Source: Pseudomonadota bacterium (GTDB lineage: Bacteria; Myxococcota_A; UBA796; GCA-2862545). Taken from it: a stretch of DNA of 64,000 nucleotides. The notes beneath the pieces are model-generated. The model saw nothing but the letters and a program-made list of their open reading frames with translations, had not been told where the DNA came from and did no database searches. Shown here piece after piece: positions 46 through 64,000 of this stretch. Position numbers and translations under genes: made by a program. Each line of letters begins with the position of its first letter. Position 1 is the first letter of the stretch. The stretch lies in NCBI GenBank assembly GCA_947475315.1, contig CANJMY010000001.1, positions 1-64,000 of the forward strand, written 5' to 3'.

Positions 46-1712
46 TCATCCACCGCGGCGCGGAGCTGGTTCTGCGACGCGGAGCTGACGCGCGGCGGCG
101 CGCTCCAGTCCTCGGACGCCTTCTTGGCGGCAGCCGCCTCGGCGGTGTCCGGGCGAACCACCCACCACGCGTCGTCTGCGGGCGGCTTGGCGGTGGGCAC
201 GACGGCGGCGAAGGTGGGCTCGTCGGCCGTCACCGGCGCGCGCACGGGCGCGGGCGCGGGCGCTGCGGTGGGCGCAGGCGCAGGCGCGAAGCCACCGAGC
301 TCCTCGGTCAGCGGGTCGGCCAACCCGTCGTCCGAACGCCCACCCGAGGGCGCCTTGGTCGCCGCGGGCGCGTTCACGGGGCGGACGTCAAAGACCTCCT
401 CGTCCGGCTCGGAGCCGTCCAGGCGGACGTCCTCGTCCTTCACGCCCAGCGAGGCTGCCGACTCCAGCAGCGCCTCGTGCCGGGTCTTGAGGATGCCGAG
501 GGCGCGGTTGCGGGTCGCCTGCGCGCGCTCGCGGGCCTCGCCCACCAGCGCCAGCGCGCCCTCCAAGCACCACGACGCCAGCTCGTCGCCAATGCGGGTG
601 GCGAGCGCGGTCATGTCTTCCAGGTCGCCGCGCTCGATCGAGCGGTGCACGACGTCGAGGATGTCCGACGGGGTCAGGCCGCCGCCGGGCACGCCCTCAG
701 ACTGGAGCACCAACGCCAGGCGACGCTTCTGCAGGCGGTCCAGCTCGCCGGACTCCTCTAGCAGACGGTACGCGTAGCCGGACACCAGGGCGTGCGACAT
801 CCACGCGCCAGCGTCGAGCGGCTCGATGATGCCGTAGCCCGCGAGGCGTTCGAGCTCGGTGGTGGCGACCTTGATGTCCAACCCGAGCAGCGCGGACAGG
901 CGCTCGGCGTGGATGGGGCCGTGCTGGAACAGGCCGGTGGCGCGCAGCACGCGCGCGGTGCCCTCGCCCAGGCGACGGTAGGCGTCGAGGAACGAGCGGG
1001 CGACGCCGATCGGGCCGCCGAGGCGCGCCGCACGACGCGGATCCACCTCACCGCCCCAAGAGCCGGACTCTTCGCCGGTGGCCTGACGCAGGCGCGAGCC
1101 GGCCAACACGACGCCGAGCGGCAGGTAGCCGACGGCCTGGAGCATGGCGCCCGCGATGATGCTGGGCACGGCCGAGCCGATCACGCCCTCGAGCAGCTCG
1201 ATGCCTTCGTCGTCGCCCAGGGGCGCGATCTCGAGCGTGCGCGCGCCGATGCGGTCGGCCGCCTTGAGGTCGTCGATGGTGTAGAGCACGCACGCGTCGG
1301 ACGGGAGCGCGGTGACGACGCGGCGGACGACGCTGACGTCGCGCTCGCGCACGCCGTCGATCACGACCAGGATGGGCCCTGCGGCCCGCAAGGCCGTGGA
1401 GATCTCAGCGAGGAGCTGGCCCAGGCTGATGCGACCGCGGATCGGCGCGCCGAGGCGGAGCGCCCAGCGGCGAAGCGCGGCGTGGGGACGGGGGCCGTCG
1501 GCCTGGAGCGTCCAGCCGAGCACGCCCTTAAAGGCGCGGGTCTCGTGGGCGAAGGCCCGAGCGAGCGCGGTGCGGCCCACGCCGGTGGTGCCGGCCTCCG
1601 CGACGAGCGCGAGGCTGCGACCCGGCCGCAGCCAGCCACCCAGGTACTCCAGCTCCTGCTGTCGTCCGACAAACGACTTGGGAGGTGGCGGAACGCCGAT
1701 GCCGATGTCCAT
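1..1712 (-). CDS. STAND/NB-ARC-like ATPase, C-terminus cut by window edge
   Basis: An uninterrupted frame of 570 codons runs from an ATG at 1712, preceded by a good AGGGGA ribosome-binding site, off the left window edge. Residues 13-24 (SFVGRQQELEYL) match the FxGRxxEL entry motif of STAND NTPases. A P-loop-like GTTGVGRT sits at residues 41-48 with Arg in place of the usual Lys, and a Walker B-like ILVVIDG at 114-120. A helical, winged-helix-like region follows. The last part in the window is a low-complexity Pro/Ala linker ending in VARDP repeats. STAND proteins act as nucleotide switches in signalling or defence; the role here is unknown. The P-loop Lys-to-Arg change may weaken hydrolysis. 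It lies about 165 bp downstream of serC on the same strand, so co-transcription is possible. Calling it an ATPase is supported; a specific function is not. Confidence 0.7.
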   Translation of the reverse strand, partial: MDIGIGVPPPPKSFVGRQQELEYLGGWLRPGRSLALVAEAGTTGVGRTALARAFAHETRAFKGVLGWTLQADGPRPHAALRRWALRLGAPIRGRISLGQLLAEISTALRAAGPILVVIDGVRERDVSVVRRVVTALPSDACVLYTIDDLKAADRIGARTLEIAPLGDDEGIELLEGVIGSAVPSIIAGAMLQAVGYLPLGVVLAGSRLRQATGEESGSWGGEVDPRRAARLGGPIGVARSFLDAYRRLGEGTARVLRATGLFQHGPIHAERLSALLGLDIKVATTELERLAGYGIIEPLDAGAWMSHALVSGYAYRLLEESGELDRLQKRRLALVLQSEGVPGGGLTPSDILDVVHRSIERGDLEDMTALATRIGDELASWCLEGALALVGEARERAQATRNRALGILKTRHEALLESAASLGVKDEDVRLDGSEPDEEVFDVRPVNAPAATKAPSGGRSDDGLADPLTEELGGFAPAPAPTAAPAPAPVRAPVTADEPTFAAVVPTAKPPADDAWWVVRPDTAEAAAAKKASEDWSAPPRVSSASQNQLRAAVDEVARDPVARDPVARD

Positions 1713-1877
1713 GCAGTCCCCTGGCCGAGCGCAGTCCCTGCCGGCCGTACGGCGCAGTATCGCCCGGCGGAGCAGGGCGCGTCACCCCTGCATTCATCGA
1801 CACGAAAGACGACGGCTTTACCCGGGTCGAACGCCGAGGAACGATCGGTGCTGCGGCCCGGTCGGTACGAAGAAGGA

Positions 1878-2972
1878 TCAGCCCTTGCCGACCGAGTTGC
1901 GCGCCGCGAAGTCCGTGAGGAAGCCGACCAGCACGTCGACCGCCTCCTCGGGCTGCGCGTTGTACAGGCTGGCGCGCAGCCCCCCCACCGAGCTGTGGCC
2001 CTTCAAGCCTAGCAATCCGTTGGCGTTCGCCTCAGCGACGAACTTCGCGTCGAGCTCGGGCGTGCCGGTGGTGAAGGTGACGTTCATCCGGGAGCGGGAG
2101 TCCGGCCGGACCTTGCCCTGAAACAGCGGGCTCTGGTCGATCGCGGCGTAGAGGCGCGCCGACTTGCGGGCGTTGCGGTCCTCGATCGCGGCCACGCCGC
2201 CCTGGGACTCGATCCACGCGCACATCCGCTCGACCACGTAGATCGCGAACGTGGCGGGCGTGTTGTACAGGCTCTTCTTGGCCGCGTGGATGTCGTAGCG
2301 GAGCATGCTCGGCAGGTCGCGATCCGCGGCGTCGAGCAGGGCCTTGCGAATGACGACGAGCGTGACGCCCGCGGGGCCCAGGTTCTTCTGCGCGCCCGCG
2401 TAGATCAGGTCGAACTTGGAGCCGTCGACGTCACGCGAGAGGATGTTGCTGCTCGCGTCGGCGATCAGCCAGGCGTCCTTCACGGTGGGCACGTAGTCGT
2501 ACTCGGTGCCGACCACCGTGTTGTTCGCGGTGTAGTGCAGGTAGCGCGTGCCCGCGGGCAGCTCGCCCCATGACCCGTCGCGCGGGACATGATCGTAGCC
2601 CGTGGCCTTGCTGCTGAACGGCACGTCGACGGTGCCAAAGCGCGCCGCCTCCTCGATGGCGCCGGCCGACCACACGCCGGTGTCGAAGTAGGTCGCGCGA
2701 GCGCCGCGCAGAAGGTTCATCGGCACCTGGAAGAACTGCGTGCGCGCGCCGCCGTGCAGGAAGAGGATCTCTTGATCCGGCGACAGGCGGAGCAGGCGGG
2801 TCAGGCGGTCGCGGGCGCGATCCATCACCGCCTCGAACGCCTTGCTGCGGTGCGAGATCTCCAGCAGGCCCATGCCGGTGCCTTCGAGCTCCCACAGCGC
2901 GTCCTGAGCCTCGCGGATCACGGGCTCGGGGATGAGGGCGGGACCCGCCGAGAAGTTGAACGCGCGCGCCAT
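1878..2972 (-). CDS. serC: phosphoserine aminotransferase
   Basis: PLP enzyme of serine biosynthesis (3-phosphohydroxypyruvate + glutamate to phosphoserine + 2-oxoglutarate). The 364-aa product begins MARAFNFSAGPALIPEPV, the typical SerC start, and carries the PLP-lysine region AGAQKNLGPAG and the substrate-loop motif HGGARTQF. Its length matches the family (about 360 aa). Two adjacent ATGs exist at 2975 and 2972. A GGAGG sits only 2 nt before the first, so 2972 has the better spacing. It lies 88 bp after rlmH on the same strand and is probably the tail of the rplU operon. An open frame extends further upstream but has no SerC homology and overlaps rlmH. Confidence 0.95.
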   Translation of the reverse strand: MARAFNFSAGPALIPEPVIREAQDALWELEGTGMGLLEISHRSKAFEAVMDRARDRLTRLLRLSPDQEILFLHGGARTQFFQVPMNLLRGARATYFDTGVWSAGAIEEAARFGTVDVPFSSKATGYDHVPRDGSWGELPAGTRYLHYTANNTVVGTEYDYVPTVKDAWLIADASSNILSRDVDGSKFDLIYAGAQKNLGPAGVTLVVIRKALLDAADRDLPSMLRYDIHAAKKSLYNTPATFAIYVVERMCAWIESQGGVAAIEDRNARKSARLYAAIDQSPLFQGKVRPDSRSRMNVTFTTGTPELDAKFVAEANANGLLGLKGHSSVGGLRASLYNAQPEEAVDVLVGFLTDFAARNSVGKG

Positions 2973-3060
2973 CATAGCCTCCACAAGGGGGCCAACCTCT
3001 ACCACGTCCAACCGCAGGTGGCGGGTCCGCCGGGACGGCCACGGTCGTCGGCGCGGCCAG

Positions 3061-3522
3061 TCAGTGGTGGTAGGGCTCGCCGCGCAGCACGGTGTGGGCG
3101 CGGTAGAGCTGCTCGTAGAGCACCACCCGCGCGACCTCGTGGTTGAGGACCATGTCGGACAGCCGCAGCGTCCGCCACGCCGCCGCGCGCACCGCCGGGC
3201 CGTGGCCGTAGGGGCCGCCGATCGCCAGCACGAGCGAGCCGCCGGCGCCCATGCCCTGCTCGACCAGCGACGCGAACTGGTGGGTGTCGAGCCGCTCACC
3301 GCGCTCGTCGAGCGCGACCAGGCGATCCCGCGGGCTCACCTCGGCGAGCACACGCTTGGCCTCGGCGTCGCGGACCGCTTCGATGTCGCCGCGGAACAAT
3401 TCCGGGCGGATCTGGGTCTCTTCGATTCCGCCGTAGCGCTTCAGGCGTCGGGCCCAGTCGTCCACGGCGGCGTCGGCCCAGGCCACGCCACCGCGTCCGA
3501 CGACCACGAGCCGGAGCTTCAC
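3061..3522 (-). CDS. rlmH: 23S rRNA pseudouridine-1915 N3-methyltransferase
   Basis: SPOUT-class methyltransferase that modifies helix 69 of 23S rRNA. The 153-aa product matches the roughly 155-aa family. It contains the SAM-binding glycine-rich knot (LVLAIGGPYGHGP), LDERGERLDTHQFA, and the C-terminal LSDMVLNHEVARVVLYEQLYRA ending in HH. The start is taken as GTG 3522, which overlaps the rsfS stop as GTGA. An upstream in-frame start would extend deep into rsfS without homology. It is translationally coupled to rsfS in an rRNA/ribosome-maturation operon. Confidence 0.95.
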   Translation of the reverse strand: MKLRLVVVGRGGVAWADAAVDDWARRLKRYGGIEETQIRPELFRGDIEAVRDAEAKRVLAEVSPRDRLVALDERGERLDTHQFASLVEQGMGAGGSLVLAIGGPYGHGPAVRAAAWRTLRLSDMVLNHEVARVVLYEQLYRAHTVLRGEPYHH

Positions 3523-3959
3523 GGCAACGAGAACAGGGGGCGATCCTCGTCGACCTCGGTGACCTCGGGCACGGGCAGGCGGGGCGCTTCGCTCCACAGG
3601 CCCTCAAGGTCGTAGAAGCCGCGCGAGCTCTCCTGGAACACGTGCAGCACCACGTCGTCGAAGTCGACCAACAGCCAGTTGCCGCCCGCCGCCCCTTCCA
3701 CGCTGATCGGGAGGAGGCTGTAGTCCTTCTTGAGGACGTGACGGACTTCATCGGCGATCGCGCGTACCTGCCGGGGGTTCCGCGCGCTGACGATCACGAA
3801 GTAGTCGCAGTACTTCACGAGCTCCACGACATCGAGGATCACAGGCTCGAACGCCTTCTTCTCCAGCGCGGCGTGGAGGATCACGTCGGCGAGCTGCTTG
3901 GAATCGATGGGGGCCTCCAGGGGCTTTGGGGTGGAATCGGGCGTCCCTGTGGTCATCAT
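3519..3959 (-). CDS. rsfS: ribosomal silencing factor RsfS
   Basis: RsfS (Iojap/DUF143) binds L14 and blocks subunit joining during starvation. The 146-aa product has the family core: KKAFEPVILDV, YCDYFVIVSARNPRQVRAIADEV and GGNWLLVDFDDVVLHVFQ. The C-terminal tail after the core (SEAPRLPVPEVTEVDED) is typical. The start at ATG 3959 overlaps the obg stop as ATGA, with a second ATG at 3956. It sits between obg and rlmH, a common neighbourhood. Confidence 0.95.
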   Translation of the reverse strand: MMTTGTPDSTPKPLEAPIDSKQLADVILHAALEKKAFEPVILDVVELVKYCDYFVIVSARNPRQVRAIADEVRHVLKKDYSLLPISVEGAAGGNWLLVDFDDVVLHVFQESSRGFYDLEGLWSEAPRLPVPEVTEVDEDRPLFSLP

Positions 3960-4966
3960 GCGCCGGATTCCTGTCGATGCGCAAGCACCTGCCACACGGC
4001 AGCGACGAGCGCGGGCACACCCTGCCCCGTGATCCCCGAGATGGGGAAGACGCGAGAGCCGGAGGCTTTTTCAAGCTTCTTGGTCCACTTCACGACGTCT
4101 TCTGGGGAGAGGACGTCGATCTTGTTGAGCGCCACGATCTGCGGCTGGTGCCCGAGCGCCCCACCGAAGGCCTTGAGCTCCTCGTTGAGCGTCTTGAGCT
4201 GGCTGACCGGGTCGCCGTCTTCGTCGTCCGCCGTCACCAGGTGAATGCTGCACTTGCAGCGCTCCAGGTGCTTGAGGAACTGCACGCCGAGGCCGGCGCC
4301 TTCGGCCGCGCCCTCGATGACACCTGGCACGTCCGCCAGCACGAACGTCTGCTCGTCCGACAGGACGACGACGCCAAGCTGCGGCACGAGCGTGGTGAAC
4401 GGGTAGTCGGCGATCTTGGGACGCGCCGCGCTGACCCGAGCCAGGAACGTGCTCTTGCCCGCGTTGGGGAAGCCAAGCAGGCCGACGTCCGCCAGCAGCT
4501 TGAGCTCCAGGCGCAGCGTGCGCTCCTCGCCGGGCTCGCCGGGGAGGAACTGACGGGGCGTCTGGTTGGTGGACGAGCGGAAGTGCATGTTGCCCAGGCC
4601 GCCCTTGCCGCCCTCGAACGTGAGGCGCTCGCCTTCGTTCACGAGCTCACCGAGCAGCTCGTCGGTCTCGTCGTCGTAGATCAACGTGCCCAACGGGACC
4701 GGCAGGACCTTGGCCTCAGCGCCCGCGCCGTAGAGCTGGCTGTTGCCGCCCTTCTCGCCGTCTTCCGCGAAGTGATGACGCGCGCGCAGGTAGTCGATCA
4801 GCGTGTTCTTGCGGGACACCGCCTCAAAGACCACGTTGCCGCCACGTCCGCCGTCACCGCCGTCGGGACCGCCGTGGGGAACGTACTTTTCCCGGCGGAA
4901 GGAGACGTGTCCGTCGCCACCCTTGCCGGTGCGGATGTAGATGACCACTTCGTCGATGAATTGCAC
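3956..4966 (-). CDS. obg: GTPase ObgE/CgtA
   Basis: Essential ribosome-associated GTPase acting in 50S assembly and stress response. It has an N-terminal glycine-rich Obg fold (GKGGDGHVSFRREKYVPHGG, DGGDGGRGG). The G domain follows, with G1 GFPNAGKST, switch PFTTLVPQLGVV, G3 DVPGVIEGAAEGAGLG and G4 NKID. Length is 336 aa without a long C-terminal extension. The start is taken as GTG 4966 (VQFIDEVVIYIRTGKGG), where Obg proteins normally begin. The upstream ATG at 5017 lies inside a stable hairpin and adds non-homologous residues. Confidence 0.95.
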   Translation of the reverse strand: MQFIDEVVIYIRTGKGGDGHVSFRREKYVPHGGPDGGDGGRGGNVVFEAVSRKNTLIDYLRARHHFAEDGEKGGNSQLYGAGAEAKVLPVPLGTLIYDDETDELLGELVNEGERLTFEGGKGGLGNMHFRSSTNQTPRQFLPGEPGEERTLRLELKLLADVGLLGFPNAGKSTFLARVSAARPKIADYPFTTLVPQLGVVVLSDEQTFVLADVPGVIEGAAEGAGLGVQFLKHLERCKCSIHLVTADDEDGDPVSQLKTLNEELKAFGGALGHQPQIVALNKIDVLSPEDVVKWTKKLEKASGSRVFPISGITGQGVPALVAAVWQVLAHRQESGA

Positions 4967-4996
4967 TGGGTGCTCACTCGTGCCCGGAAAGTACGA

Positions 4997-5032
4997 ACGG
5001 GATGACCCCCCGAACATGGGGGACCATCCCGT
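4997..5032 (-). terminator. hairpin between rpmA and obg (attenuator/partial terminator or processing site)
   Basis: Perfect inverted repeat ACGGGATG/CATCCCGT (4997-5004 with 5025-5032) enclosing a second stem CCCCC/GGGGG (5006-5010 with 5018-5022) and a 7-nt loop. It lies between the rpmA stop and the obg GTG. No clear U-run follows, so it may reduce read-through or mark RNA processing rather than terminate fully. It also argues against the ATG at 5017 as the obg start. Confidence 0.55.
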
Positions 5033-5052
5033 CCTGCACCACGCGGGTTTGG

Positions 5053-5313
5053 CTACTCGGCCGCGAGCGGCTCGACGTTCACGATCTTACGGTTGCGGCG
5101 CGAGCCGAACTTGACCGTGCCGTCGACCAGCGCGAACAGCGTGAAGTCCTTGCCGCGACCGACGTTCTCGCCCTCGTGAACGCTGGAGCCGACCTGACGC
5201 ACGATGATGCTGCCGGCCGTGACCGTCTCACCATCGAAGCGCTTGACGCCGCGGTACTGGGGGTTGGAGTCGCGGCCGTTTCGGGTAGAACCCTGACCTT
5301 TCTTATGCGCCAT
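5053..5313 (-). CDS. rpmA: 50S ribosomal protein L27
   Basis: The 86-aa product begins [16 protein letters not shown], the canonical L27 N-terminus that reaches the peptidyl-transferase centre, and continues with the L27 core [32 protein letters not shown]. There is no N-terminal cleavage extension of the Firmicutes type. It lies 12 bp downstream of rplU. Confidence 0.98.
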
Positions 5314-5325
5314 CGTGAGCTCCCT

Positions 5326-5634
5326 TCAGGCCTTGATCGAGATGATTTCGAGGGTGGTGTGGCTGTGGCGGAAGCCGAACCAGCGACGCATGCGGTGCCG
5401 GCGGCGGTACTGCATGCCCTTCACCTTCTCACCCAGGTGGTGGTCGACGATCTTGGCTTCAACGCTGGCACCCGGAACGAGCGGGGTGCCGACCTTGACG
5501 CCATCATCACCGATCATGAGGACGCGATCGAGGACGATCGTGCTGCCCTCTTCCGCGTCGACGTGGTCGACGACGACCTGTGCGCCGGGCTCGACGCGGT
5601 ACTGCTTGCCAGAAGTCTCAACAATCGCGAACAT
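5326..5634 (-). CDS. rplU: 50S ribosomal protein L21
   Basis: The 102-aa product (MFAIVETSGKQYRVEPG) has the L21 fold and the C-terminal YRRRHRMRRWFGFRHSHT rRNA-binding segment. A strong AAGGAG ribosome-binding site precedes the ATG at 5634. It is the first gene of the rplU-rpmA-obg-rsfS-rlmH operon, behind a promoter and a hairpin-rich leader. Confidence 0.98.
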   Translation of the reverse strand: MFAIVETSGKQYRVEPGAQVVVDHVDAEEGSTIVLDRVLMIGDDGVKVGTPLVPGASVEAKIVDHHLGEKVKGMQYRRRHRMRRWFGFRHSHTTLEIISIKA

Positions 5635-5650
5635 TGGAAGTGCTCCTTGG

Positions 5651-5720
5651 CGTCTCCAACCGGAGACGGGCGGGCGCTGGATGCGCCGTATCCATGATCA
5701 GACCGCCGCATCTTGTGCGG
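5651..5720 (-). promoter_or_regulatory. rplU 5' leader with three consecutive hairpins (possible r-protein autoregulatory leader)
   Basis: On the minus-strand transcript three simple hairpins follow one another. CCGCA/TGCGG pairs with a 5-nt loop (5706-5720), GGCGC/GCGCC with a 5-nt loop (5673-5687), and CGTCTCC/GGAGACG with a 4-nt loop (5651-5668). The last ends only a few bases before the rplU ribosome-binding site. Ribosomal-protein leaders of this type often bind the encoded protein. Autoregulation by L21 here is inference. Confidence 0.45.
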
Positions 5721-5737
5721 ACGGCGAGCCCGGCCCG

Positions 5738-5764
5738 CTTATAGGATCGCCCGCTCCCCGTCAA
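5738..5764 (-). promoter_or_regulatory. sigma70-type promoter of the rplU operon
   Basis: TTGACG (5759-5764) and TATAAG (5738-5743) are separated by 15 bp on the minus strand. Predicted transcription start is near 5731, giving a leader of about 97 nt before rplU. The region lies just beyond the stop codon of the upstream AAA gene, where an independent promoter is needed. Confidence 0.6.
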
Positions 5765-5828
5765 GTCGAAGCGACCTCGGATCCAGCGAGATCACGGCCA
5801 CAGCGGGCGCTTTGAGCGCCCTATCCCG

Positions 5829-7532
5829 TCAGGTCGCGCGCCACCCGAGGCTGGCCTTGAGGCCGTCCAGGCGAGCCAGCACGTCCTGGGTGTCGATCCC
5901 CTGGTAGCGCTCGGGCAGCATTCGGCGGGCGCTGCACTCAAACACCGCCAGCAGCTCCATGTACTCGAGCATACGCACGTCGCGCGAGGGCACCACGTCC
6001 ACGGCGGCCGCCGCCAAGTCCGGCCCGCTCACCAGGTCGCGGCCGTCATTGGCGGCGGTCGTGGCGGCGGCGAGTACGACGGACTCGAGCTCAGCGCCCG
6101 ACCAGCCGTCCGTCGCCACGGCGATCGGCGCCAGATCCACGTCGCCGCCCAGGCCGACGTCGTTCTTGCGGGCGAGCGCGGCCAGCACGCTGCGGCGCTC
6201 CTCCACCGACTGCGGGAAGAAGAACGGGATCTTCAGGTCGAAGCGGCCCGGGCGCTTGAGGTCGGTGTCCAGGCGGTCCGGCCGATTGGTCATCATCAGC
6301 ATCACCACGCGCCCACGGTGCGAGGTGTCGGACATGAATTCCTTGAGCCGCGCGATCACGCGGCTGCCAGTGCCGCCGTCCTGCTCGCCCGACGCCAGCG
6401 CCCGCTCGGCCTCGTCGATGATGAGCAGGACGTACCCAAGGGCCTCGACCAGATCGAGCACCTTCTCCAGGTTGGACTCGGTGGCGCCCACCCAGCGGTC
6501 GCGGAAGTTGGCGAGCTTGAGGCAGACCAGACCCGACTCCGCCGCGAAGGCCTCAGCGACGAAGGTCTTGCCGGTGCCCATGGGGCCCACGAAGATCATG
6601 CCCATCGGGACTTGGTTCTTCTTGCCGGTCTTGATGGCGTCCGCGATGCGCAGCAGGTTCGCCTTCACCTCGTCCATGCCGCCCACGTGCGAGAGGTCGT
6701 GGCGGGGCGCCACCAGCTCCACCAGGCCCTGGCACTCCTGCTCCAGGATCACCTTCTTGCGCTGGGCCACCGTCTCAAAGCGGATCGACGCATGCGACTG
6801 GCGCGCCACCTGGAGCAGCCCGCGCAGCTGCAGCAGCGTCAGGCCCGCCGTGATCTTGGCGAGCTGCGGCGAGGGCAGGTCGGTCGGCACGTCGGCCGTG
6901 AGCTCGACCTCCAGGAAGGCGTCCCGCATGGCCTCGTCGGGGAACGGGACGCGCAGCGTGACCAGCTGGGGGCTGGCCACCACGCTCGGCGCCACGTCGG
7001 ACAGCTGCTCGGCGACCAGGATCACCAGGTTGTTCGTGGCGAGCAGCGCGGGGTCGCTCGACCAGCGGCGCAGCGTCACCAGGTTGGCCTTGTCGTCCTG
7101 GGTCATGAACGCGACGTCGGCGCGCGGTGCGACCGTCTCGAAGAAGTCGATCACCGCGCCGGTGGAGCGGGTCTGGTCGGTGACCAGCACCTCGATCGCG
7201 CTCAGCACCTCAGAGAGGCCCCGCGGGAGCGTGTCCACGCGCGGCTGGCCGTTGAGCATGCGGCGCGCGTCGAGGATGGCGCGGAAGCGCTTCTCGTGCT
7301 CCTTCTCGCTGAAGCACAGGCCCTGCGAGACATTGTAGTAGGCGACCACGTCACGCGTGCGGAGCAGGAAGCGCTCCAAGAACGAGCGCAGATCCAGCCA
7401 CTCCACCTTACCGGCGCCGTCATCCCACGGGTGCAGGTCGCGGACGTTGCCGTGCACCAGGAACAGGCTGGCCTCGCCAGACAGGTAGCGGTCGCGCAGG
7501 GTGGTGGCCCAGCCGGGCAGGATCGGGCTCAT
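5829..7532 (-). CDS. AAA+ ATPase, Ycf46-like
   Basis: 567-aa protein. The N-terminal half (1-270) resembles the degenerate first domain of Ycf46-type proteins (LFLVHGNVRDL at the start, no intact P-loop). The C-terminal half is a complete AAA+ module: GPMGTGKT (316-323), Walker B LLIIDEAE, and second region of homology MMTNRPDRLDTDLKRPGRFD with the arginine finger. A helical lid follows. Ycf46 relatives occur in cyanobacteria, plastids and scattered bacteria. Their substrates are poorly defined. The start at ATG 7532 overlaps the HEAT gene stop as ATGA, so it is translationally coupled to the FHA/HEAT genes upstream. It may be the motor of that module, which is inference. Confidence 0.85.
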   Translation of the reverse strand: MSPILPGWATTLRDRYLSGEASLFLVHGNVRDLHPWDDGAGKVEWLDLRSFLERFLLRTRDVVAYYNVSQGLCFSEKEHEKRFRAILDARRMLNGQPRVDTLPRGLSEVLSAIEVLVTDQTRSTGAVIDFFETVAPRADVAFMTQDDKANLVTLRRWSSDPALLATNNLVILVAEQLSDVAPSVVASPQLVTLRVPFPDEAMRDAFLEVELTADVPTDLPSPQLAKITAGLTLLQLRGLLQVARQSHASIRFETVAQRKKVILEQECQGLVELVAPRHDLSHVGGMDEVKANLLRIADAIKTGKKNQVPMGMIFVGPMGTGKTFVAEAFAAESGLVCLKLANFRDRWVGATESNLEKVLDLVEALGYVLLIIDEAERALASGEQDGGTGSRVIARLKEFMSDTSHRGRVVMLMMTNRPDRLDTDLKRPGRFDLKIPFFFPQSVEERRSVLAALARKNDVGLGGDVDLAPIAVATDGWSGAELESVVLAAATTAANDGRDLVSGPDLAAAAVDVVPSRDVRMLEYMELLAVFECSARRMLPERYQGIDTQDVLARLDGLKASLGWRAT

Positions 7533-8644
7533 GGAGCGGTCCCCTTGTCACAGCGCGCGACCACCGCGGCGGCCGCCGCGCGCACCTGGTTGCGATCGTC
7601 TTGAAGGCGCGTGGCGAACGTGTCCTGCAGCGCGCACAGCCCGGTGGACGACACGGCCCGCGAGGCCGAGGCCCAGGTCCAGGGGTCGTCCGCACGCAGC
7701 ACGCGGCGCACCAGCTCGATGGCGTCCGCGTCGGGCAGCATCTTCAGGCGCTGGAAGCCCAGCTCGCGGGCGGTAGGGTCGTCGCTCTCGATCGCGTGGC
7801 GCACGGCGGCGACCGACGGGTGGGCGAGCACGGCGAGCGCGTCGCGCAGGGGCTTGTCCCCCACCGTCGACAGGTCCTGGGCCAGCTTGGCGCGGTCGGC
7901 GTCCGGAAGCGCGGCGATCAGCTCCGCCAGATCCCAACCGACCGAGGCGTCCGCGCGCACCGACGACCGCCAGGCGGCGCGGGCGTCCGGATCGCCAAGG
8001 CGCGCGCGCACCACCTGCATGCGCGCGATCGCGTCCGGCTCGACCCAGCGCTCAGCGCCCACCAGGGCTGCGGCCAGCTCCGGCCAGCCGTGCGTGGCGA
8101 TGGTGCCCAGGAGCAAAACGTCGTCGCGCAGGTCGCCGTGGTCGATGGTGCTGGCGACGGTCGCCTTGGCGGCGGCGTCCCCGAGCGCGACGCGCACCAG
8201 CCCGAGCGGCACGCGGTCGGCCTTGGGCGTGCCCGATCCCACCTCGAACGCGTCGAGCGGGAACGTGGCGCCGTGGGCCAGGCGTTCGAACGCGACCGAC
8301 GCGCGGGTGGTCGCGTCCGCCGAGGGCAGGACGGCGTAGGCCTCGAGCGTGGCGTCATCCAGGCCGCTCGCGACCATGGCGCGCTGCACCCACGGGTCCG
8401 GGTCGTACAGGGCGCGCTCCACCCACGCGCCGCGCTCGGCGGCCAGGGCGGGGGCGCGGGCCAGCCCGATCAGCGCGATGGCGCGGGTGTCCGGGTCGGT
8501 GTCGGCCGCCAGCTTCTTGAGGATGTCGAGCGGAGGCGCTGCGGCCATCGGCTCGCCGTCCGGCAACGTGGTGTCGAGCGCCAGCTGAGAGATCGGCCGA
8601 CACGCCATGCCGACCGCGCACGCGACCGGCAGGAGGCGGTTCAC
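7529..8644 (-). CDS. HEAT-repeat-like putative lipoprotein
   Basis: 371-aa product from GTG 8644, chosen because it forms a GTGA overlap with the preceding FHA gene. The first residues (VNRLLPVACAVGMAC) look like a short lipoprotein-type signal, though the lipobox (GMAC) is atypical. The rest is a series of Ala/Leu/Asp-rich helical repeats (DTRAIALIGLARA, DPWVQRAMVASG, HPSVAAVRHAIES) resembling HEAT/PBS-lyase repeats. These are protein-interaction scaffolds. It is coupled on both sides, to the tandem FHA protein and to the AAA ATPase. No enzymatic motif was seen. Confidence 0.7.
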   Translation of the reverse strand: MNRLLPVACAVGMACRPISQLALDTTLPDGEPMAAAPPLDILKKLAADTDPDTRAIALIGLARAPALAAERGAWVERALYDPDPWVQRAMVASGLDDATLEAYAVLPSADATTRASVAFERLAHGATFPLDAFEVGSGTPKADRVPLGLVRVALGDAAAKATVASTIDHGDLRDDVLLLGTIATHGWPELAAALVGAERWVEPDAIARMQVVRARLGDPDARAAWRSSVRADASVGWDLAELIAALPDADRAKLAQDLSTVGDKPLRDALAVLAHPSVAAVRHAIESDDPTARELGFQRLKMLPDADAIELVRRVLRADDPWTWASASRAVSSTGLCALQDTFATRLQDDRNQVRAAAAAVVARCDKGTAP

Positions 8645-9576
8645 CGCGGCATCGCCAGGAAGGCGATCACGCCGCCGCAGGTGACGAGCGAGCCCACCAC
8701 CAGGATGCCCACGAGGATCCACATCACCGTGTTGTCCTGCGCGGCGGCCGGCTGGTTCATGCGCGACTGAACCGGGAGCACCGGCGCGCGGACCACGGGC
8801 GCAGGCGGAGGCGGAGGCAGAGGCGCGGGGACCGGAGCGGGGACCGGAGCGGGGACCGGAGCGGGGACCGGAGCGGGGACCGGAGCGGGGACCGGAGCGG
8901 GAGCAGGCGTCGGCGTCGGCACGGCGACCACGACCGGGGTGGACTTGGGCGCAGGCGCAGGGGCCGGAGCGGGGGCCGATGCGCCGCCGATCAGCTCGAA
9001 GCGGAGGACCGAGTTGCCCAGGGCGACCAGATCGCCGTGACGGAGCACGGAGTCAGACACCTGCTCGTCGTTGAGGAACACGCCGTTGGCGCTGTCGTTG
9101 TCGACCAGCGACCACGTGGTGCCGCGGCGGACCAGCCGGGCGTGGGCGCGCGAGGCGCCCTTGTCGTCGAGGTGCACGTCCTGGTCGGCGCCGCGGCCGA
9201 TCGACGCGCTGGCGCCGCGCAGGGGGAAGCGCCTGCCCGCGTCGGGGCCGTCCACGCCGATCAGCTCGGCGCCGGGCTGCTCGACCGTGTCTGCCCGCTG
9301 GAGCAGCATGGTGAACGGGAGGATCTCGATCACCGCGCCCAGCGCGACCACGCCGTTGGTGACCTGGGTGCCTTCGACGAAGGTGCCGTTGCCGCTGCCG
9401 AGGTCCTCGACCACGACCAAGTCACCGTCGACCAGCAGGCGGGCGTGCTTGCGCGACACCTCCTTGTCGTCGAGGCGGATCTCATTGCCTTCCTGGCGAC
9501 CGATGCCGAACGCCCCATCGGCGAGCTTGAGCTTGCGCTCGGCCTCGCCCTCCCTACGAATCACCAGCTCGATCAT
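8641..9576 (-). CDS. tandem FHA-domain protein with C-terminal membrane anchor
   Basis: 311 aa from ATG 9576, which has GAGGAG upstream. Two FHA domains read phosphothreonine: FHA1 has GRQEGNEIRLDDKEVSRKHA and GSGNGTFVEG; FHA2 has GRGADQDVHLDDKGASRAHA and DSANGVFLND. Both keep the Arg, Ser-Arg-x-His and Asn-Gly signature residues. A long Pro/Ala/Val linker with six VPAP units follows, then one C-terminal helix (MWILVGILVVGSLVTCGG). The topology puts the FHA domains on one side of a membrane, probably the cytoplasm. It lies 10 bp after a single-FHA gene and overlaps the HEAT gene. It probably couples Ser/Thr kinase signals to the HEAT/AAA partners. Confidence 0.85.
   Translation of the reverse strand: MIELVIRREGEAERKLKLADGAFGIGRQEGNEIRLDDKEVSRKHARLLVDGDLVVVEDLGSGNGTFVEGTQVTNGVVALGAVIEILPFTMLLQRADTVEQPGAELIGVDGPDAGRRFPLRGASASIGRGADQDVHLDDKGASRAHARLVRRGTTWSLVDNDSANGVFLNDEQVSDSVLRHGDLVALGNSVLRFELIGGASAPAPAPAPAPKSTPVVVAVPTPTPAPAPVPAPVPAPVPAPVPAPVPAPVPAPLPPPPPAPVVRAPVLPVQSRMNQPAAAQDNTVMWILVGILVVGSLVTCGGVIAFLAMPR
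8827..8898. repeat. 12-bp tandem repeat (6 copies) coding for VPAP linker
   Basis: Six exact copies of GGGGACCGGAGC lie inside the tandem-FHA gene and encode the Pro-Ala linker. Such arrays are prone to copy-number change, so linker length may vary between strains. Confidence 0.9.
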
Positions 9577-50116: not shown

Positions 50117-50487
50117 GTTTCCGTCTCAGAGTCCTCCCAGGCGCCGCGATGGACGGCGCTGCAGCGGCTGACTGGTACGGCATCCGAAGTGTCACCGCGG
50201 CTCTCGCGTTTGCGCAGGCACTCGAGCTCTGCATCCTGCGCGTCGCTGAAGCTCCGCTGTTGCACCCGCCGCGCTTCGGTCCGTTCCGTCAGTGCAAGGT
50301 ACGCCGCTTTCCCTACCACGTCGTGTACCGGCTTCATGATGACGATGTAGTCGCTGGTGCAGGGCAACGCGCACATGTGCCTGCTGGACGGACTCGCGGA
50401 CTACGCGGGCGGCGAGATCGTGTACCGCTCCGACGACCCCGGGAACCAGGAGCAAGACTCGAACGCCGACCCCGAGGCGCCGTGTGA
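50113..50487 (+). pseudogene. ParE/RelE-like toxin with replaced C-terminus
   Basis: The frame starts at GTG 50113. About 78 residues are ParE/RelE-like (FRLRVLPGAAMDGAAAADWYG, CKVRRFPYHVVYRLHDDDVV). The expected last strand (usually a V-A-H-Q-R-R-type end) is missing. From about 50350 the frame reads arginine-rich nonsense (RTRGLRGRRDRVPL) antisense or out of phase with the next fragment. The toxin is probably inactive. It is a joint of two unrelated sequences rather than a simple frameshift. Confidence 0.7.
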
Positions 50488-57759: not shown

Positions 57760-59580
57760 ATGGCCGGTCTGATGGGCGTCGTCCAGGACACCGACGGACC
57801 CCTGTCCGACGCGGTGCTGGCAAAGATGCGCGCCCGCGCGGTCCACCGCGGCGTGGCCGATGGCCTGTGGCGCGAGGGTGGCGCGACGCTCGCATGGTCT
57901 GGTCCAGCCCCGTGCACGGCGATCGACGATGACTTCTTCGTCCTGTTGGACGGGTGGGTCTCGTTCCCCGGCGCCGACCCCAAAGATCCGCTGGCCCGCC
58001 TGCACGACGCCGCCACGTTCGCCGCCGGGTGGCGCAAGTGGGGCGTGGACCTGCTCCGCCAGCTGGAGGGCGAGTTCGCCGCCGCGGTGGTCGAGCGCAA
58101 GTCGGGCGTGGTCCACCTGGTCCGCGACCCGTGCGGCACCCGCCCGCTCTACTGGGCGCGTACCCACAAGCGGCTGGCCTTCTCGTCGGACCTGGCGCCG
58201 CTGCTGGAGCTGGACTGGGTGAGCCGCGAGCTCGCCCGCGAAAACCTCGCCGAGTACCTGTCCTTCCGCGTGGTCCACCCGCCGCGCACGCTGCTGCGCG
58301 ACGTGTTCTCCCTGCCTGCCGGTCACCGGCTGCGCAGCGGCGCGGACGCGGTGCGCGTGGTGCGCTGGTTCTCCCCCACCTACGCGGCGCCCGGCACGGC
58401 CACGCCGCGCGCCCAGGATGTGGTGCCCGAGCTGACCGCCGCGGTGGAGGCCGCCGTACGTCGGCGCCTGCGCGGCGACGCGAACGTGGGCGTGTACTTG
58501 TCGGGCGGCGTGGGGTCGACGTCGATCCTGGCGGCGGCGCGCGCCGCGTCACGCAAGCTCCAGACGTTCACGGTCGCGTTCGCCGACGAGCCCAGCCCCG
58601 AGTCGCCCTTCGCCGGTCGCATCGCGCAGCTGCTCGGCATGGACCACCACACGGTGCTGGTGGGCACCAAGGAGGTGGCCGACGGCTTCGACGACGCGGT
58701 GGACGCGCTCGGGCACCCCATCGGCAACATCTCGGCCGTGCTGCAGCTGCACCTGGCGCGGGCCACGGTGGGCAAGGTGTCGACCATCCTCACCGGCGAC
58801 GGCACCGACGAGCTGTTCGGCGGGCGCATGCTGGAGGGCCCGGCGGCCTCGCTCGCCCGGTCGGCGGCCTTCCACCGCCTGCCCAACGCGCTGCGCGCCC
58901 CGCTCGACAAGGCCCTGGCGGCGATCGGACGCGGCGACAGCGTGCGCGAGGGCCCCGAGACCTGGGCCTTGTCGCACGGCGTCGGCGGCCTGAACGTGTA
59001 CGACAGCCGCGCGCGCCGCTCGCTGCTGCTCGACGACCTGCACGTCCGCCCGAACGTGCGGCAGGAGGTGCTGCGCCCGTTCTACGACGCGGTGGACACC
59101 GACCCGCTCAACGCGGTGCTGGAGGCCTTCTTCCAGTCGTCGCTGGTGGCGGACACGCTGCCGCGCGTGGAGGGCACGGCCGCGTCGGTGGGCCTGGACG
59201 TGGGCTACCCGCTGCTCGACCGCGAGGTGCGCCGCATCGCCCAGGTGCTGCCCGGCGCGTTCAAGGTGGGCGGCGTCGGTCGCACCGATCTGCCCACACG
59301 CTGGCTGCTGCGCGCGGCGCTGCAGGGCGCCGTCCCGGCGGCGCTGGTCAACCGGCCCGATCGCGAGCTGCCGCGCCCGCTCGACGCCTGGCTGACCGGC
59401 CCTGGCCGCTTGTTCCTGGAGGAGCGGTTTGCCGAGCTGCGCCGCGATCCGCTCGAGCTGTTCCACACCACGGCGCTGGAGGCGCTCAAGCGCGGCCTGT
59501 CCAAGACGCCGGGCGCGGCGCAGCGGATGTGGTCGCTGTTGATCTTGGACGCGTGGATGCGCCGGACGGGCGTGACCTAG
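57760..59580 (+). CDS. asparagine-synthetase-like protein lacking Cys2 and the PP-loop Asp
   Basis: 606 aa, AsnB-like overall: N-terminal Ntn-type glutaminase fold (1-200; VRDPCGTRPLYW, LAFSSDLAPLL), then an ATP-pyrophosphatase synthetase domain (ILTGDGTDELFGG, GYPLLDREV). Two key residues are missing. The glutaminase nucleophile Cys2 is Ala (MAGLMGVV), and the PP-loop SGGxDS is SGGVGSTS (248-255) with Gly252 for Asp. It cannot use glutamine, and adenylation is doubtful. Beta-lactam synthetase-type relatives also lack Cys2 but keep the Asp. It is divergent from tamAB by 57 bp. Function is open. Confidence 0.85.
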   Translation: MAGLMGVVQDTDGPLSDAVLAKMRARAVHRGVADGLWREGGATLAWSGPAPCTAIDDDFFVLLDGWVSFPGADPKDPLARLHDAATFAAGWRKWGVDLLRQLEGEFAAAVVERKSGVVHLVRDPCGTRPLYWARTHKRLAFSSDLAPLLELDWVSRELARENLAEYLSFRVVHPPRTLLRDVFSLPAGHRLRSGADAVRVVRWFSPTYAAPGTATPRAQDVVPELTAAVEAAVRRRLRGDANVGVYLSGGVGSTSILAAARAASRKLQTFTVAFADEPSPESPFAGRIAQLLGMDHHTVLVGTKEVADGFDDAVDALGHPIGNISAVLQLHLARATVGKVSTILTGDGTDELFGGRMLEGPAASLARSAAFHRLPNALRAPLDKALAAIGRGDSVREGPETWALSHGVGGLNVYDSRARRSLLLDDLHVRPNVRQEVLRPFYDAVDTDPLNAVLEAFFQSSLVADTLPRVEGTAASVGLDVGYPLLDREVRRIAQVLPGAFKVGGVGRTDLPTRWLLRAALQGAVPAALVNRPDRELPRPLDAWLTGPGRLFLEERFAELRRDPLELFHTTALEALKRGLSKTPGAAQRMWSLLILDAWMRRTGVT

Positions 59581-59587
59581 CGGGCCG

Positions 59588-60877
59588 TCAGCGGTTGGTG
59601 CGCGTGAGCTGCATGGCGCACACGTCCGACCACTTGTCGTGCACACCCTGGGTCATCCGCGTTTGGATGAGCGGGGTGAGCACGTGGAAGCGCGCCGCGA
59701 GCGAGCGCTCCCCGGTCATCGGGTCGCGCGCGACGCCTTCCGCGGTCTCGCCGTGCAGCTCCTTCTGGAAGTTGTCGACGTCCACGTGGGTGAGCACGTC
59801 GCCGACGCAGAGCTGGTAGAGGTTGTCGCACGCGGGCATGTCGGCGCGGGCGTGCCAGGCGGTGTCGTCGTCGGGGTTGGCCGGCGGCAGGTCGTCGAGC
59901 TGGGCGCGCAGGCCGAAGGTCGCGAAGGTGGTGTCACCGCCGGCCATGACCTGGCGCACGTTCGCCCAGGAGTGCCCCAGGGTGGAGAGGTAGACCGACG
60001 CGCGGCAGAGCTGCGCGACGTCTTCCGCGGTGAAGGGGCCGTGCACGTCGTGGGCGAACTCGGACGCGTCGAGCCAGGCGCTGGCGGGCGTCACGCCATC
60101 CCACGGCGCCCAGGCGGGCCAGTTGGCCTCAAGCTGGGCGAACACCCGACGCAGCTCCTCGGTCCAACGCCGGGTCGGCGTGTCGTGCTCCCACCAGGAC
60201 TGGATGCCGCCGCCGAGCGTGTCGAGGCCCTCGCGCACGTAAGGCGTCACCGCCTGGTTCCAGTAGAGATCGTGGACCAACGGCGCATAGTGCGACGGCG
60301 CGATCGACGTGCGGCGTGGGCGGAAGCTGCGCCAGTGGAGGGCCGCCACGCGCCGACGGAAGCGACGGCGCAGCGCCGTGGAGGTGAGCGCGCTGCACAC
60401 GGTCAAGAGCCCCGCGTCGCCCCAGATCACCGCGTCCGCGCCGCGGTTGACGATCGTGACCTCGGCCAGGCGCGTGGTGAGCAGCTGGCGGACCGGGTGG
60501 TCGTCCGACAGGCGCGCGGTCTCGATCGCCACCGCGATCACCTCCGGCACCAGGTGGCCGAGCGAGATGTGCAGGTCGATCTGCCCGTGCAGCAGCGACG
60601 CCGAGCACACGATCCGGCGCGCGCGCTCCTTGCGCCAGTCGAGCTCGGCTGGGTCGCGCATGGCGACGGTGGACCAGGGCCCGTACGACGCGTCGCCGCC
60701 GTTCTGGTAGTCGGTCGCGGGCACGCCCTGGACGCGGCGGTAGCGCATGCGGACGGTGTCGACCTCGACCAGACCCTGCGCGCGCACGAAGCGCACGACG
60801 ATCTCGGGCAGGCGGTAGGTGTCGTAGGCGCGGCCTATCTTGTCGCCGAACGGCCGGGCACCACCGCTCTGGACCAT
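59588..60877 (-). CDS. short lipoxygenase-like protein
   Basis: 429 aa. The central segment matches the lipoxygenase iron-site pattern. H103-ISLG-H108 (HxxxxH) is followed by LVPEVIAVA, then HPVRQLL (127-133) and EVTIVN, as in the HP...LL...IN region of lipoxygenases. H302-SWAN306-VRQ corresponds to the HxxxNxxQ motif. The usual C-terminal Ile ligand is absent; the protein ends in TRTNR. The N-terminal PLAT domain is also absent, so it is a mini-form. Expected activity would be peroxidation of polyunsaturated fatty acids. The start at 60877 overlaps the upstream kinase gene by 43 bp without a good ribosome-binding site; a shorter form is possible. Confidence 0.6.
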   Translation of the reverse strand: MVQSGGARPFGDKIGRAYDTYRLPEIVVRFVRAQGLVEVDTVRMRYRRVQGVPATDYQNGGDASYGPWSTVAMRDPAELDWRKERARRIVCSASLLHGQIDLHISLGHLVPEVIAVAIETARLSDDHPVRQLLTTRLAEVTIVNRGADAVIWGDAGLLTVCSALTSTALRRRFRRRVAALHWRSFRPRRTSIAPSHYAPLVHDLYWNQAVTPYVREGLDTLGGGIQSWWEHDTPTRRWTEELRRVFAQLEANWPAWAPWDGVTPASAWLDASEFAHDVHGPFTAEDVAQLCRASVYLSTLGHSWANVRQVMAGGDTTFATFGLRAQLDDLPPANPDDDTAWHARADMPACDNLYQLCVGDVLTHVDVDNFQKELHGETAEGVARDPMTGERSLAARFHVLTPLIQTRMTQGVHDKWSDVCAMQLTRTNR

Positions 60878-63800
60878 GAAGTCAAACTACGAATGCCGCG
60901 CTGCTGCAATCGGCCTCGCAGTTCAGCCTCTGAAGGCTGGTTCCCGTCAAGGACTGAGTCGTACAGCAAGACAAGGTCGCGATGCGCGTGCATGCCGATC
61001 GCGTCGTAATTCAGTGCCGCTGTTCGGTACGCATTTCTTGAGCCCTCCACGTCGCCATCGACCCACGCGGCGGCGCCCCGCATGGCGGCCCCCACGGCCT
61101 GCGCCCAGCGGTGCGGCTGGCGCTCGAAGTGGCGCGCGTCGGCGCGCATGCGGACCATGGCCTTTGGGTCGCGCCGTGCCGTGCCGACCAGCGCCGCGCC
61201 CATGCGGGACTCGATGCGGACGTGCAGGGCGGACTGGAGGAACCACGCGTGCGCGCGGAGCGCCTCGACCGCGGCGTCGGCGGCGTCCAGATCGTTGCGG
61301 ACCAGCGCGATCGACACCCGAGCGTGCAGCACCAGGTACTGCGTGCCGAACGGGGCGCTCAGGTCCTCGCCGGGGCGACGCAGATCGATCACCTGGTCGG
61401 CGCGGTCGGGGTCATCGTCGACCAGGGCCAGCCAGGCGACGAGCCCGACGCGGATCTGCTCCTCCTGCACCCGGTTGCCGTTGGCGATCGCGTTGGAGAG
61501 CTCGCGGTCGACGAACGCGCGCAGGCCTGCGTAGTCGCCGCGGTAGCGCAGCGTCCAGCCCAGGTGACGCTCGGCGTGGGCGCGCTCCCACCCTTCGGCC
61601 ACCATGGACCGCCACGACTCGAGCGCCGAGGTCAGGTGCGCGTGCGCGTCGTCGATCTCGCCGCGGATGAACGCGCCGTAGCCGAGCCCCCAGTGCATCA
61701 GCGCCCGCTGCTCGGCGTCGTCCGTCTGCGCCAGAGCCGCGAGCGCCCGGTCGACGAGCGCGCGGGTGCTCGAGCTCACCTTCGCCGACGTCAGGCCGTA
61801 GGCCAGCTCATGCACCAGCCCCTGCGCCTGCTGGCGCGCGTCGCCCCAGCGGGCGGCCTCGTAGGCGTGCGACACCTGGAACGGCGCGCCGCGCTCGAAG
61901 TCCACGCTGCCGAGCGCGCCGGCCAGCACCCAGCCGACGTCGATGCGCTCCGAGCGTCGGGCGTCGGGCGTGCCCCGGGGTGCGCCGCGCAGACGCCAGA
62001 TCGCCGTGACCGCCTGCCACCAGAAGGCCTGCGCCACCGTCTCCACCAGGTTGCGCGACCAACGCAGGCCCAGCCGCGACATCATCGGGTCGAGCCGCGC
62101 CCGGCCCAGGTCGAAGCGGCCCGCGCCGAACGCGATCTCCGCCGCGCGGATGCGGGCACGGGACGCCCGCTCGCCGTTGAGGTGCTCGCTCGCCTCGATC
62201 CACGCGCGCGACGCGGCCTCGATCACGCCGGTGCGCGTGACGGCCTCAGCGCGGCGAAGGTAGGCTTGCGCAGGGTCGGTCGCGTGCTCGCCGACGTAAG
62301 CGTAGAAGTGCGCGGCGTCCGCCCAGGCGTACTTGGCGAAGGCCTCGTCGGCGGCCTTGCGCGCGTAGGTGAGCGCCCGGTCGGCGCGTCCCGCGGCCAC
62401 GTTGTGGTGGAAGAGCACGCTGGGCGGCGCGGCGTCGCGGGCCTCGAGCGCGTCCGCGAGGTGCGCGTGGATGGCCGGGACCCGATCGGCGGCGACGCGC
62501 TGCTGCTCCCAGACGCGCCAGCGGTCGTGGGCGGGCTCGAACGCGGTGCGACCGGTGTGCGCGACCCGCGCGACCATGCCTCGGCGGCCAAGCTCCTGCA
62601 GCGCGGCCGGCGGCACCTTCTCCCCGACCACGGCGTCGAGGGAAGCCAGGTCGAGCGGCCCCACCGAGAAGGCGAGCGCCTGACTGACCGATCGGGCGAC
62701 CTCGTCCAGGCGCGCGTGCGCTTGCTCCATGGCGGCGGCCGGGTCGACCGAGTGCTGCGGGTCCGCGCTCAGCACCGTCATGAGCAAGAACGGGTTGCCC
62801 GCTGTGGAGTGGAGCAGCGCGTCCACGCCCGTCGGGTCCAGGTCACGGTGCAGGCGCGCCGCCCACTCGACCACCGCGTCCGCGCCAAGCCCGGACAGCT
62901 CCAGGTCGACCGCGGCGCCGCCGGTGTCCGCCGCCGACCACGTCGGGCGGGTGCGCGCGGTGAGCAGCAACGTCACGCCGGCCGGGCCGTGCAGCCGCAG
63001 CTCCTTGAGGAAGGGCAACGAGTCTTCGTCGGCCCACTGGGCGTCGTCGAGCCACAGGCGGAGCGGGCCGTCCTGCGCCACGCGGCCGACCAGCGACACG
63101 AACGCGCGCGCGGCCTCGACCACCGCGCGGTCCGGCTCGACCGTCGCGGGCGCGACGCCGAGCACGTCGAGGCGCTGGAACAGCGGCAGCAGCGCCGCCA
63201 CCGCGTCGCGCGTGGCCGCCTCGCGCTCCTGGGCGCGCGACACCTGGCACCAGGCCAGCAGGTCGTCGATCCACCCGTCGACCGCCGGGTACGGGATGGA
63301 GCAGTCCGGGTAGCAGCGGCTGCGCCACGTGGAACCGGGCCGCGTGCGGCCGACCTCAGTCAGGAAGGCCTCGACCAGGACGGTCTTGCCGACGCCCGAG
63401 GGCCCGAGGACCGTCGCGACCACCAGCCCTTCGGACGCGGCCGCGTCGGCCTGGAACAGCACCGCCAGCTCGTCCGTGCGACCCAGGAACACCCGACGCA
63501 CCCGGTCGCCCGTGGACAGGCCGCGCTCCGACAGCAGGTCGACGAGCTCATCGGCGGTGGGCCGGGCGCACGGTTCGGGCGCCAGCATGCGGGCGACGAG
63601 CGAGGCGAGCGTCGGCGGGGCGTCGACGGCGTGAATCGGGGGCGCGTCGCCCATGCGGGTGGCGAGCAAGGTCTGGTCGGGGTCGCCGTGGAAGGGCGGG
63701 TGTCCGTGCAAGATCTCGTAGACGATGGCGCCCAGCGACCAGACGTCTGAGGTGGGGCCGCTGGTCGCGCCCTGGAGCAGCTCGGGCGCGAGTTAGCCCT

Positions 63801-64000
63801 GGGTGCCCGAGCCCCCCTCCAGGTCCTCGCTGCGCGAGCCCATCGAGCGGAAGCGGCCGGACACGTCGAAGTCGATCAGCACGACGGTGTCGGGCGCCGC
63901 GCAGATCAGGTGCTCCGGCTTGAGGTCGCCGTGGGCGAGGCCGGCGTCATGCAGCGCGAGCAGCGCGTCGGCGGCCTGGCGCAGCAGCCGGGTCAGCGCG
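60835..64000 (-). pseudogene. kinase-NTPase-TPR protein with in-frame stop; 5' end outside window
   Basis: Minus-strand frame running from the window end. The kinase part reads HDAGLAHGDLKPEHL, LIDFDVSG and GTQG-stop-LAPELL: TAA at 63793-63795 replaces the Tyr codon expected in GTxGYxAPE. The same frame then continues with SDVWSLGAIVYEILHG, an NTPase (GPSGVGKT, LRLWLDDAQWAD) and a TPR-like region to TAG 60835. The catalytic loop is HGD rather than HRD, His replaces the metal-binding Asn, and DFG is DFD, so it may be a pseudokinase anyway. The stop may be a true nonsense mutation, a sequence error, or separate the gene into two products. Confidence 0.8.

Follow-up and report, generated by a model that had tools for sequence, protein, structure and literature searches.

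Small lipoxygenases (LOXs) occur in cyanobacteria, where Anabaena is said to have a mini-lipoxygenase of 49 kDa. Excerpts of PMC10177866 describe NsLOX as an active mini-lipoxygenase of 455 residues, with His192 as first metal ligand and Ile at its end. The longer CspLOX1 (lipoxygenase 1, Cyanothece sp.) corresponds to PDB 5EK8, a chain of 668 residues, the name being assigned here from the residue numbering in Table 1 of PMC5437038; the same paper gives the ligands of CspLOX2 as His257, His262, His449, Asn453 and the carboxy group of the C-terminal Ile569. The fungal manganese lipoxygenases have a C-terminal Val, according to an excerpt of PMC13059375.

The window, by which we mean the whole 64,000-nucleotide stretch of DNA analysed, carries on its minus strand a gene that resembles all of these and departs from each of them. 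The features of the locus are as follows.

59588..60877, minus strand: divergent lipoxygenase-like gene, 429 aa, shortened by an internal in-frame deletion relative to the sister genome.
60554..60571, minus strand: codons of predicted metal ligands 1 and 2, H103 and H108 (HISLGH), in the aligned ligand columns.
59960..59974, minus strand: codons from the third His (H302) to the Asn (N306), HSWAN.
59591..59593, minus strand: codon of Arg429, which stands where canonical lipoxygenases have their C-terminal Ile ligand (the ends TRTNR and SRCNR align with SRINI-type ends).
60853..60854, minus strand: junction at which 888 nt are deleted in frame, so that 296 codons of the sister's 725-aa ortholog are lacking.
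60835..63792, minus strand: C-terminal part (AAA_16, then repeats) of the kinase-AAA-TPR gene upstream of the LOX gene, overlapping the start of the latter by 43 nt.
63793..63795, minus strand: in-frame stop dividing the window's kinase gene, which in the sister is a single frame of 1218 codons.
63796..64000, minus strand: N-terminal part of the kinase gene (Pkinase, 5e-17), extending beyond the window to about 64470 of contig C1.

The LOX frame begins with ATG and spans 432 codons from stop to stop, so no longer frame is possible. The translation bears out the motifs (HxxxxH, HP...LL, IVN and HxxxNxxQ) that a reading of the sequence alone had picked out, and a recount upheld the ligand positions: H103 and H108 lie inside HISLGHLVPE, HPVRQLL occupies residues 127-133, IVN 142-144, and H302, N306 and Q309 fall inside HSWANVRQ, with Arg429 as the final residue. 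Long chance frames are common at the GC content of the window (69-74% throughout); this one is nonetheless coding because it has LOX homology.

On sequence comparison, the 429-aa ORF shares descent with the LOX superfamily, as one of its outlying members. A phmmer search of PDB sequences places 5EK8 first (E=2e-11); another three LOX sequences score below 0.003, and the list also includes unrelated entries, which begin at 0.005. When the three orthologs (the window's and two relatives') are combined in a profile, 5EK8 is reached at E=2e-18, which makes CspLOX1 the closest solved sequence. By hhalign, the same profile matches seven bacterial "SRINI"-type LOXs at 99.8% (E=3e-29). The predicted ligands H103, H108, H302 and N306 sit at the aligned ligand columns, and all three orthologs have His, His, His and Asn there. 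The lipoxygenase relationship proposed by the sequence-only reading is thus borne out, but a profile search, one of the checks it had named, gave a divided answer: neither the window protein nor either ortholog matches the Pfam LOX model PF00305, NCBIfam gives no match to the window protein, and PF00305 is equally without a match in other members of the subclade described below, such as L081. This blindness, together with the hhalign result against seven canonical LOXs (only 64%, E=6.5e-5), counts against the reading favoured below. A six-frame PF00305 search of the window's genome matched only a paralog on contig C19, not the 429-aa ORF; that second, canonical LOX (L055, G000:C19:17338-18609, PF00305 E=1.5e-64) ends in RSVAI. 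AlphaFold models from three-row alignments reached pLDDT 38.7 and 34.2 and are unusable. Viral contigs scanned with three alignments yielded no confirmed LOX-like candidate, and a scan of genome contigs returned only the two relatives already known.

Like CspLOX1, the window protein has the HxxxxHxxxE and HxWxNxxQ motifs and lacks a PLAT domain, an absence already suspected from the sequence and consistent with a best Pfam score of at most 13.5 bits and no domain found; CspLOX1, with which sequence identity is low, keeps a long N-terminal part that the window protein does not. The cyanobacterial mini-lipoxygenases, NsLOX among them, are likewise small, PLAT-free and of the His-His-His-Asn type. 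NsLOX, however, has 191 residues before its first His and an Ile end in the excerpted account, whereas the window protein has 102 residues ahead of its first metal His, carries Arg as its last residue and owes its small size to deletion.

The protein had been called a mini-lipoxygenase beforehand, but its orthologs do not support a naturally minimal design. The sister genome (the only other genome of the genus compared) encodes an ortholog of 725 aa with 93% identity over residues 10-429, and the ortholog in G029, a genome of the same family, has 758 aa. The window and sister proteins are identical in their first eight residues and at their ends; the window gene matches the sister's for 24 nt after the ATG and then rejoins it 888 nt further on, in frame. 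Lost with these 296 of 725 residues is an LLNGMAP stretch common to both orthologs, which aligns weakly with LNGMNP of 5EK8 (3.7 bits for that piece, with the three-ortholog profile). A natively short protein is ruled out by the sister's 725-aa ortholog, short length therefore becomes a secondary matter, and the window protein is not a naturally short one with a complete catalytic core, as a mini-lipoxygenase would be.

Might the deletion and the kinase stop both have arisen by mistake in the assembly, a draft that is 85% complete in 151 contigs, the organism itself carrying a full-length pair? Two lesions within one operon would fit such an explanation, as would the patchy identity to the sister (88.6-100% per 500 bp), a pattern seen in mixed populations. 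The deletion, however, is in frame, and its junction has no repeat that could explain a jump, so the assembler presumably had little reason to skip. Moreover, the surrounding 32.6 kb, from window position 37369 to contig position 70000, is collinear with the sister at 96-97% identity, and holds only one other gap longer than 400 nt, of about 470 nt near 50360. We consider assembly error improbable. Two side observations concern the same comparison: the second gap, where about 470 nt of sister sequence is absent near 50350-50360, is an indel outside the LOX locus; and contig C1 at about 63950-64500 shows 100% identity to the sister amid surroundings of 91-98%, as recombination or mixed-strain assembly would produce.

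A LOX deletion and a kinase stop in one operon suggest decay, and we lean towards reading the ORF as the damaged version of a divergent lipoxygenase gene that belongs to a LOX branch linked to kinases. Against decay stand the frame kept across the deletion, a dN/dS of 0.22 over the 420 codons common to the window and sister LOX genes, and a near-equal number of changes at sites conserved with the G029 LOX (6 in the window, 5 in the sister). For comparison, dN/dS is 0.024 for the neighbouring asparagine synthase and 0.138 for the C-terminal part of the kinase; the value for the N-terminal part rests on 1+1 changes and was not used. The same constraint, with the preserved frame and all four ligand residues intact, could instead mean that the deletion left a stable core still binding iron and oxidising lipid, as in cyanobacterial mini-lipoxygenases, and active mini-lipoxygenases of about 450 aa do exist (PMC10177866, in excerpt). 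Such a working enzyme seems unlikely, given the short lead of the window protein to its first His beside that of NsLOX, the loss of the LLNGMAP stretch (in both orthologs, and aligned to 5EK8) and the interruption of the partner kinase gene. The window copy is probably inactive or recently dying rather than a working mini-lipoxygenase.

The C-terminal Ile of lipoxygenase was reportedly a target of mutagenesis by Chen et al. in 1994. Relatives of the window protein end in SRINI, SRINL, GRVNI and similar sequences, while the window and sister proteins end in TRTNR and the G029 protein in SRCNR. TRTNR and SRCNR align with the SRINI-type ends, which puts the last Arg at the ligand position itself and not beyond it; Arg is found there in three of three orthologs. 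The terminus is thus non-Ile as first read (and not Val either), common to both orthologs. A frameshift masking an Ile end was considered and rejected, since the orthologs keep the same kind of end and the next gene, which is convergent, stops at 59580. A longer C-terminus in related genomes, which the sequence-only reading had thought worth looking for, did not appear: the sister protein stops at the same residue, and that of G029 at SRCNR. That reading was half right in describing the protein as without the C-terminal Ile ligand, for the Ile is absent, but the carboxylate of Arg429 aligns with that of Ile and would not be missing. LOXs bind the metal through the main-chain carboxylate of whichever residue comes last, so an Arg end would retain this ligand and alter packing. 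The fungal manganese enzymes share a non-Ile end with the window protein, but their Val is a hydrophobic, conservative replacement, whereas Arg is charged.

A relaxed end is not peculiar to this gene. LOX-like loci were gathered as best matches, at most 30 per search, and the 74 ORFs obtained were reduced to 52 by dropping 3'-open ORFs, those below 200 bits (the fragment L018 excepted) and duplicates by their last 80 residues. In this sample, among the matches listed, Ile closes 35 frames, Val 4, Arg 3, Leu and Ser 2 each, and Met, Thr, Ala, His, Pro and Tyr one each, so that 17 of the 52 have non-Ile ends, the Pro and Tyr rows appearing interrupted. Literature searches found no paper on C-terminal variation in bacterial LOXs.

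The gene upstream, which we take to be of the PknK/STAND kind, resembles such kinases in combining, in the sister, Pkinase and AAA_16 within one protein encoded by a single frame; it differs from them in having a LOX gene as neighbour. In the window, these two domains lie on opposite sides of the stop at 63793-63795, and the sister gene is intact. The pairing recurs. A tree of 48 of the 52 sequences (all but the window copy, one fragment and two broken frames) places the sister and G029 proteins, among the matches listed, in a seven-row subclade (support 96/92) nested in a 15-row clade (100/99) separate from the canonical LOXs; the tree tool warns of long branches, including L010 within the subclade. 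Among the matches listed, all seven subclade LOX genes have a kinase-AAA gene within 6.5 kb. It overlaps the LOX gene or lies no more than 25 nt away in G019, G029 (where it begins near a contig end and only the AAA_16 part is visible) and G354, is convergent with it at 0.9 kb in G317:C203, and lies 2.7 and 2.4 kb away from the two LOX genes of G024 and 6.4 kb away in G317:C20. The kinase HMM was trained on three of the loci that it recovers (G019, G354 and G317:C203), while G029, G317:C20 and G024 (twice) are independent. Within the stretches compared, it matched at none of the eight other wider-clade loci among the matches listed, three of which lie on short contigs or at contig ends (L084, L087, L088). 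Each genome has 58 to 139 AAA_16 matches, roughly one gene in every hundred, and kinase neighbours at most LOX loci are therefore not expected by chance. An abundance of LOX and kinase genes would point towards Myxococcota. Furthermore, the best match of the sister kinase is the LOX-neighbour kinase in three of four genomes (G029, G317 and G024, with 83, 126 and 41 matches); in G354 it ranks third of 118. At L085, as an observation in its own right, two convergent LOX-like genes, 4359-6734 on the plus strand and 6790-9240 on the minus strand, each with Gly at the Asn position, lie 2.4-2.7 kb downstream of their own kinase-AAA genes. No paper on the pairing of kinase-AAA-TPR and LOX genes was found in literature searches.

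Three subclade loci (G029, G354 and G317:C203) also carry a GAF-sigma54 activator. Related kinases occur away from LOX genes as well, in two cases together with a sigma54 activator (L098, L104); kinase and activator therefore form a module of their own, with LOX as one of its partners. These LOX-free kinases, and the distances of 2.4-6.4 kb at three of the seven LOX genes, count against coupling to the kinase.

It could be argued that the branch has given up lipoxygenase chemistry, the LOX fold acting instead as a kinase subunit that senses lipid or redox state, with its terminal residue and Asn free to drift. The kinase association would suit this, as would the last residues of the subclade (I, S, A, V, I, R, R) and the Gly that replaces Asn in two rows. 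We find it doubtful: the three His are retained in seven of seven rows, drift of the last residue is seen outside the subclade too, and in the wider clade the neighbouring patatin lipases (L083, L082), together with a catalase-LOX fusion, fit lipid oxidation. That natural fusion (L091, 3751-6072; PF00199 and PF00305 in one protein) adjoins a PAS-GGDEF-EAL gene. Elsewhere, clusters at L083 (3386-9879), L086 (2648-9409) and L087 hold two canonical LOXs, one SRINI-type LOX and, between them, a lipase of the GGGAKGVA (patatin) type, which Pfam confirms in L083 only. At L080, a CHAT and SLOG-cluster2 protein (427-4086) lies upstream of a 1317-aa protein (4570-8520) in which DUF7379 and DUF7362 are followed by a LOX-like part ending in Ser.

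The LOX branch to which the probably decaying copy in the window belongs is best read, from alignments and gene neighbourhoods, as one with a relaxed C-terminus, invisible to Pfam and linked to a kinase. Its intact form, represented by the sister's 725-aa protein, would be a non-heme iron (or manganese) protein that binds its metal through three His and the terminal main-chain carboxylate. It may oxidise a lipid as an output of the pathway in which the neighbouring kinase signals, joined at three loci by the GAF-sigma54 activator. More tentatively, and with slightly less than even confidence, we suggest that this Pfam-blind LOX-fold branch is the dedicated partner of the kinase-AAA-TPR protein (with the same activator at those loci), that Arg, Ser or Ala can each supply its terminal metal ligand, and that the two make up a bacterial signal module for lipid oxidation or lipid sensing.

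One published LOX screen, as excerpted in PMC10653942, demanded a C-terminal Ile or Val. Screens built on that rule or on PF00305 would overlook this branch. The family deserves testing more than the damaged window copy does, since the Arg end and the kinase neighbour are common to its relatives. Whether the metal site depends on a hydrophobic last residue, and to what extent, could be learned from the Arg, Ser and Ala ends that occur naturally; if the kinase partnership is functional, the branch would also offer a direct route to what bacterial lipoxygenases signal.
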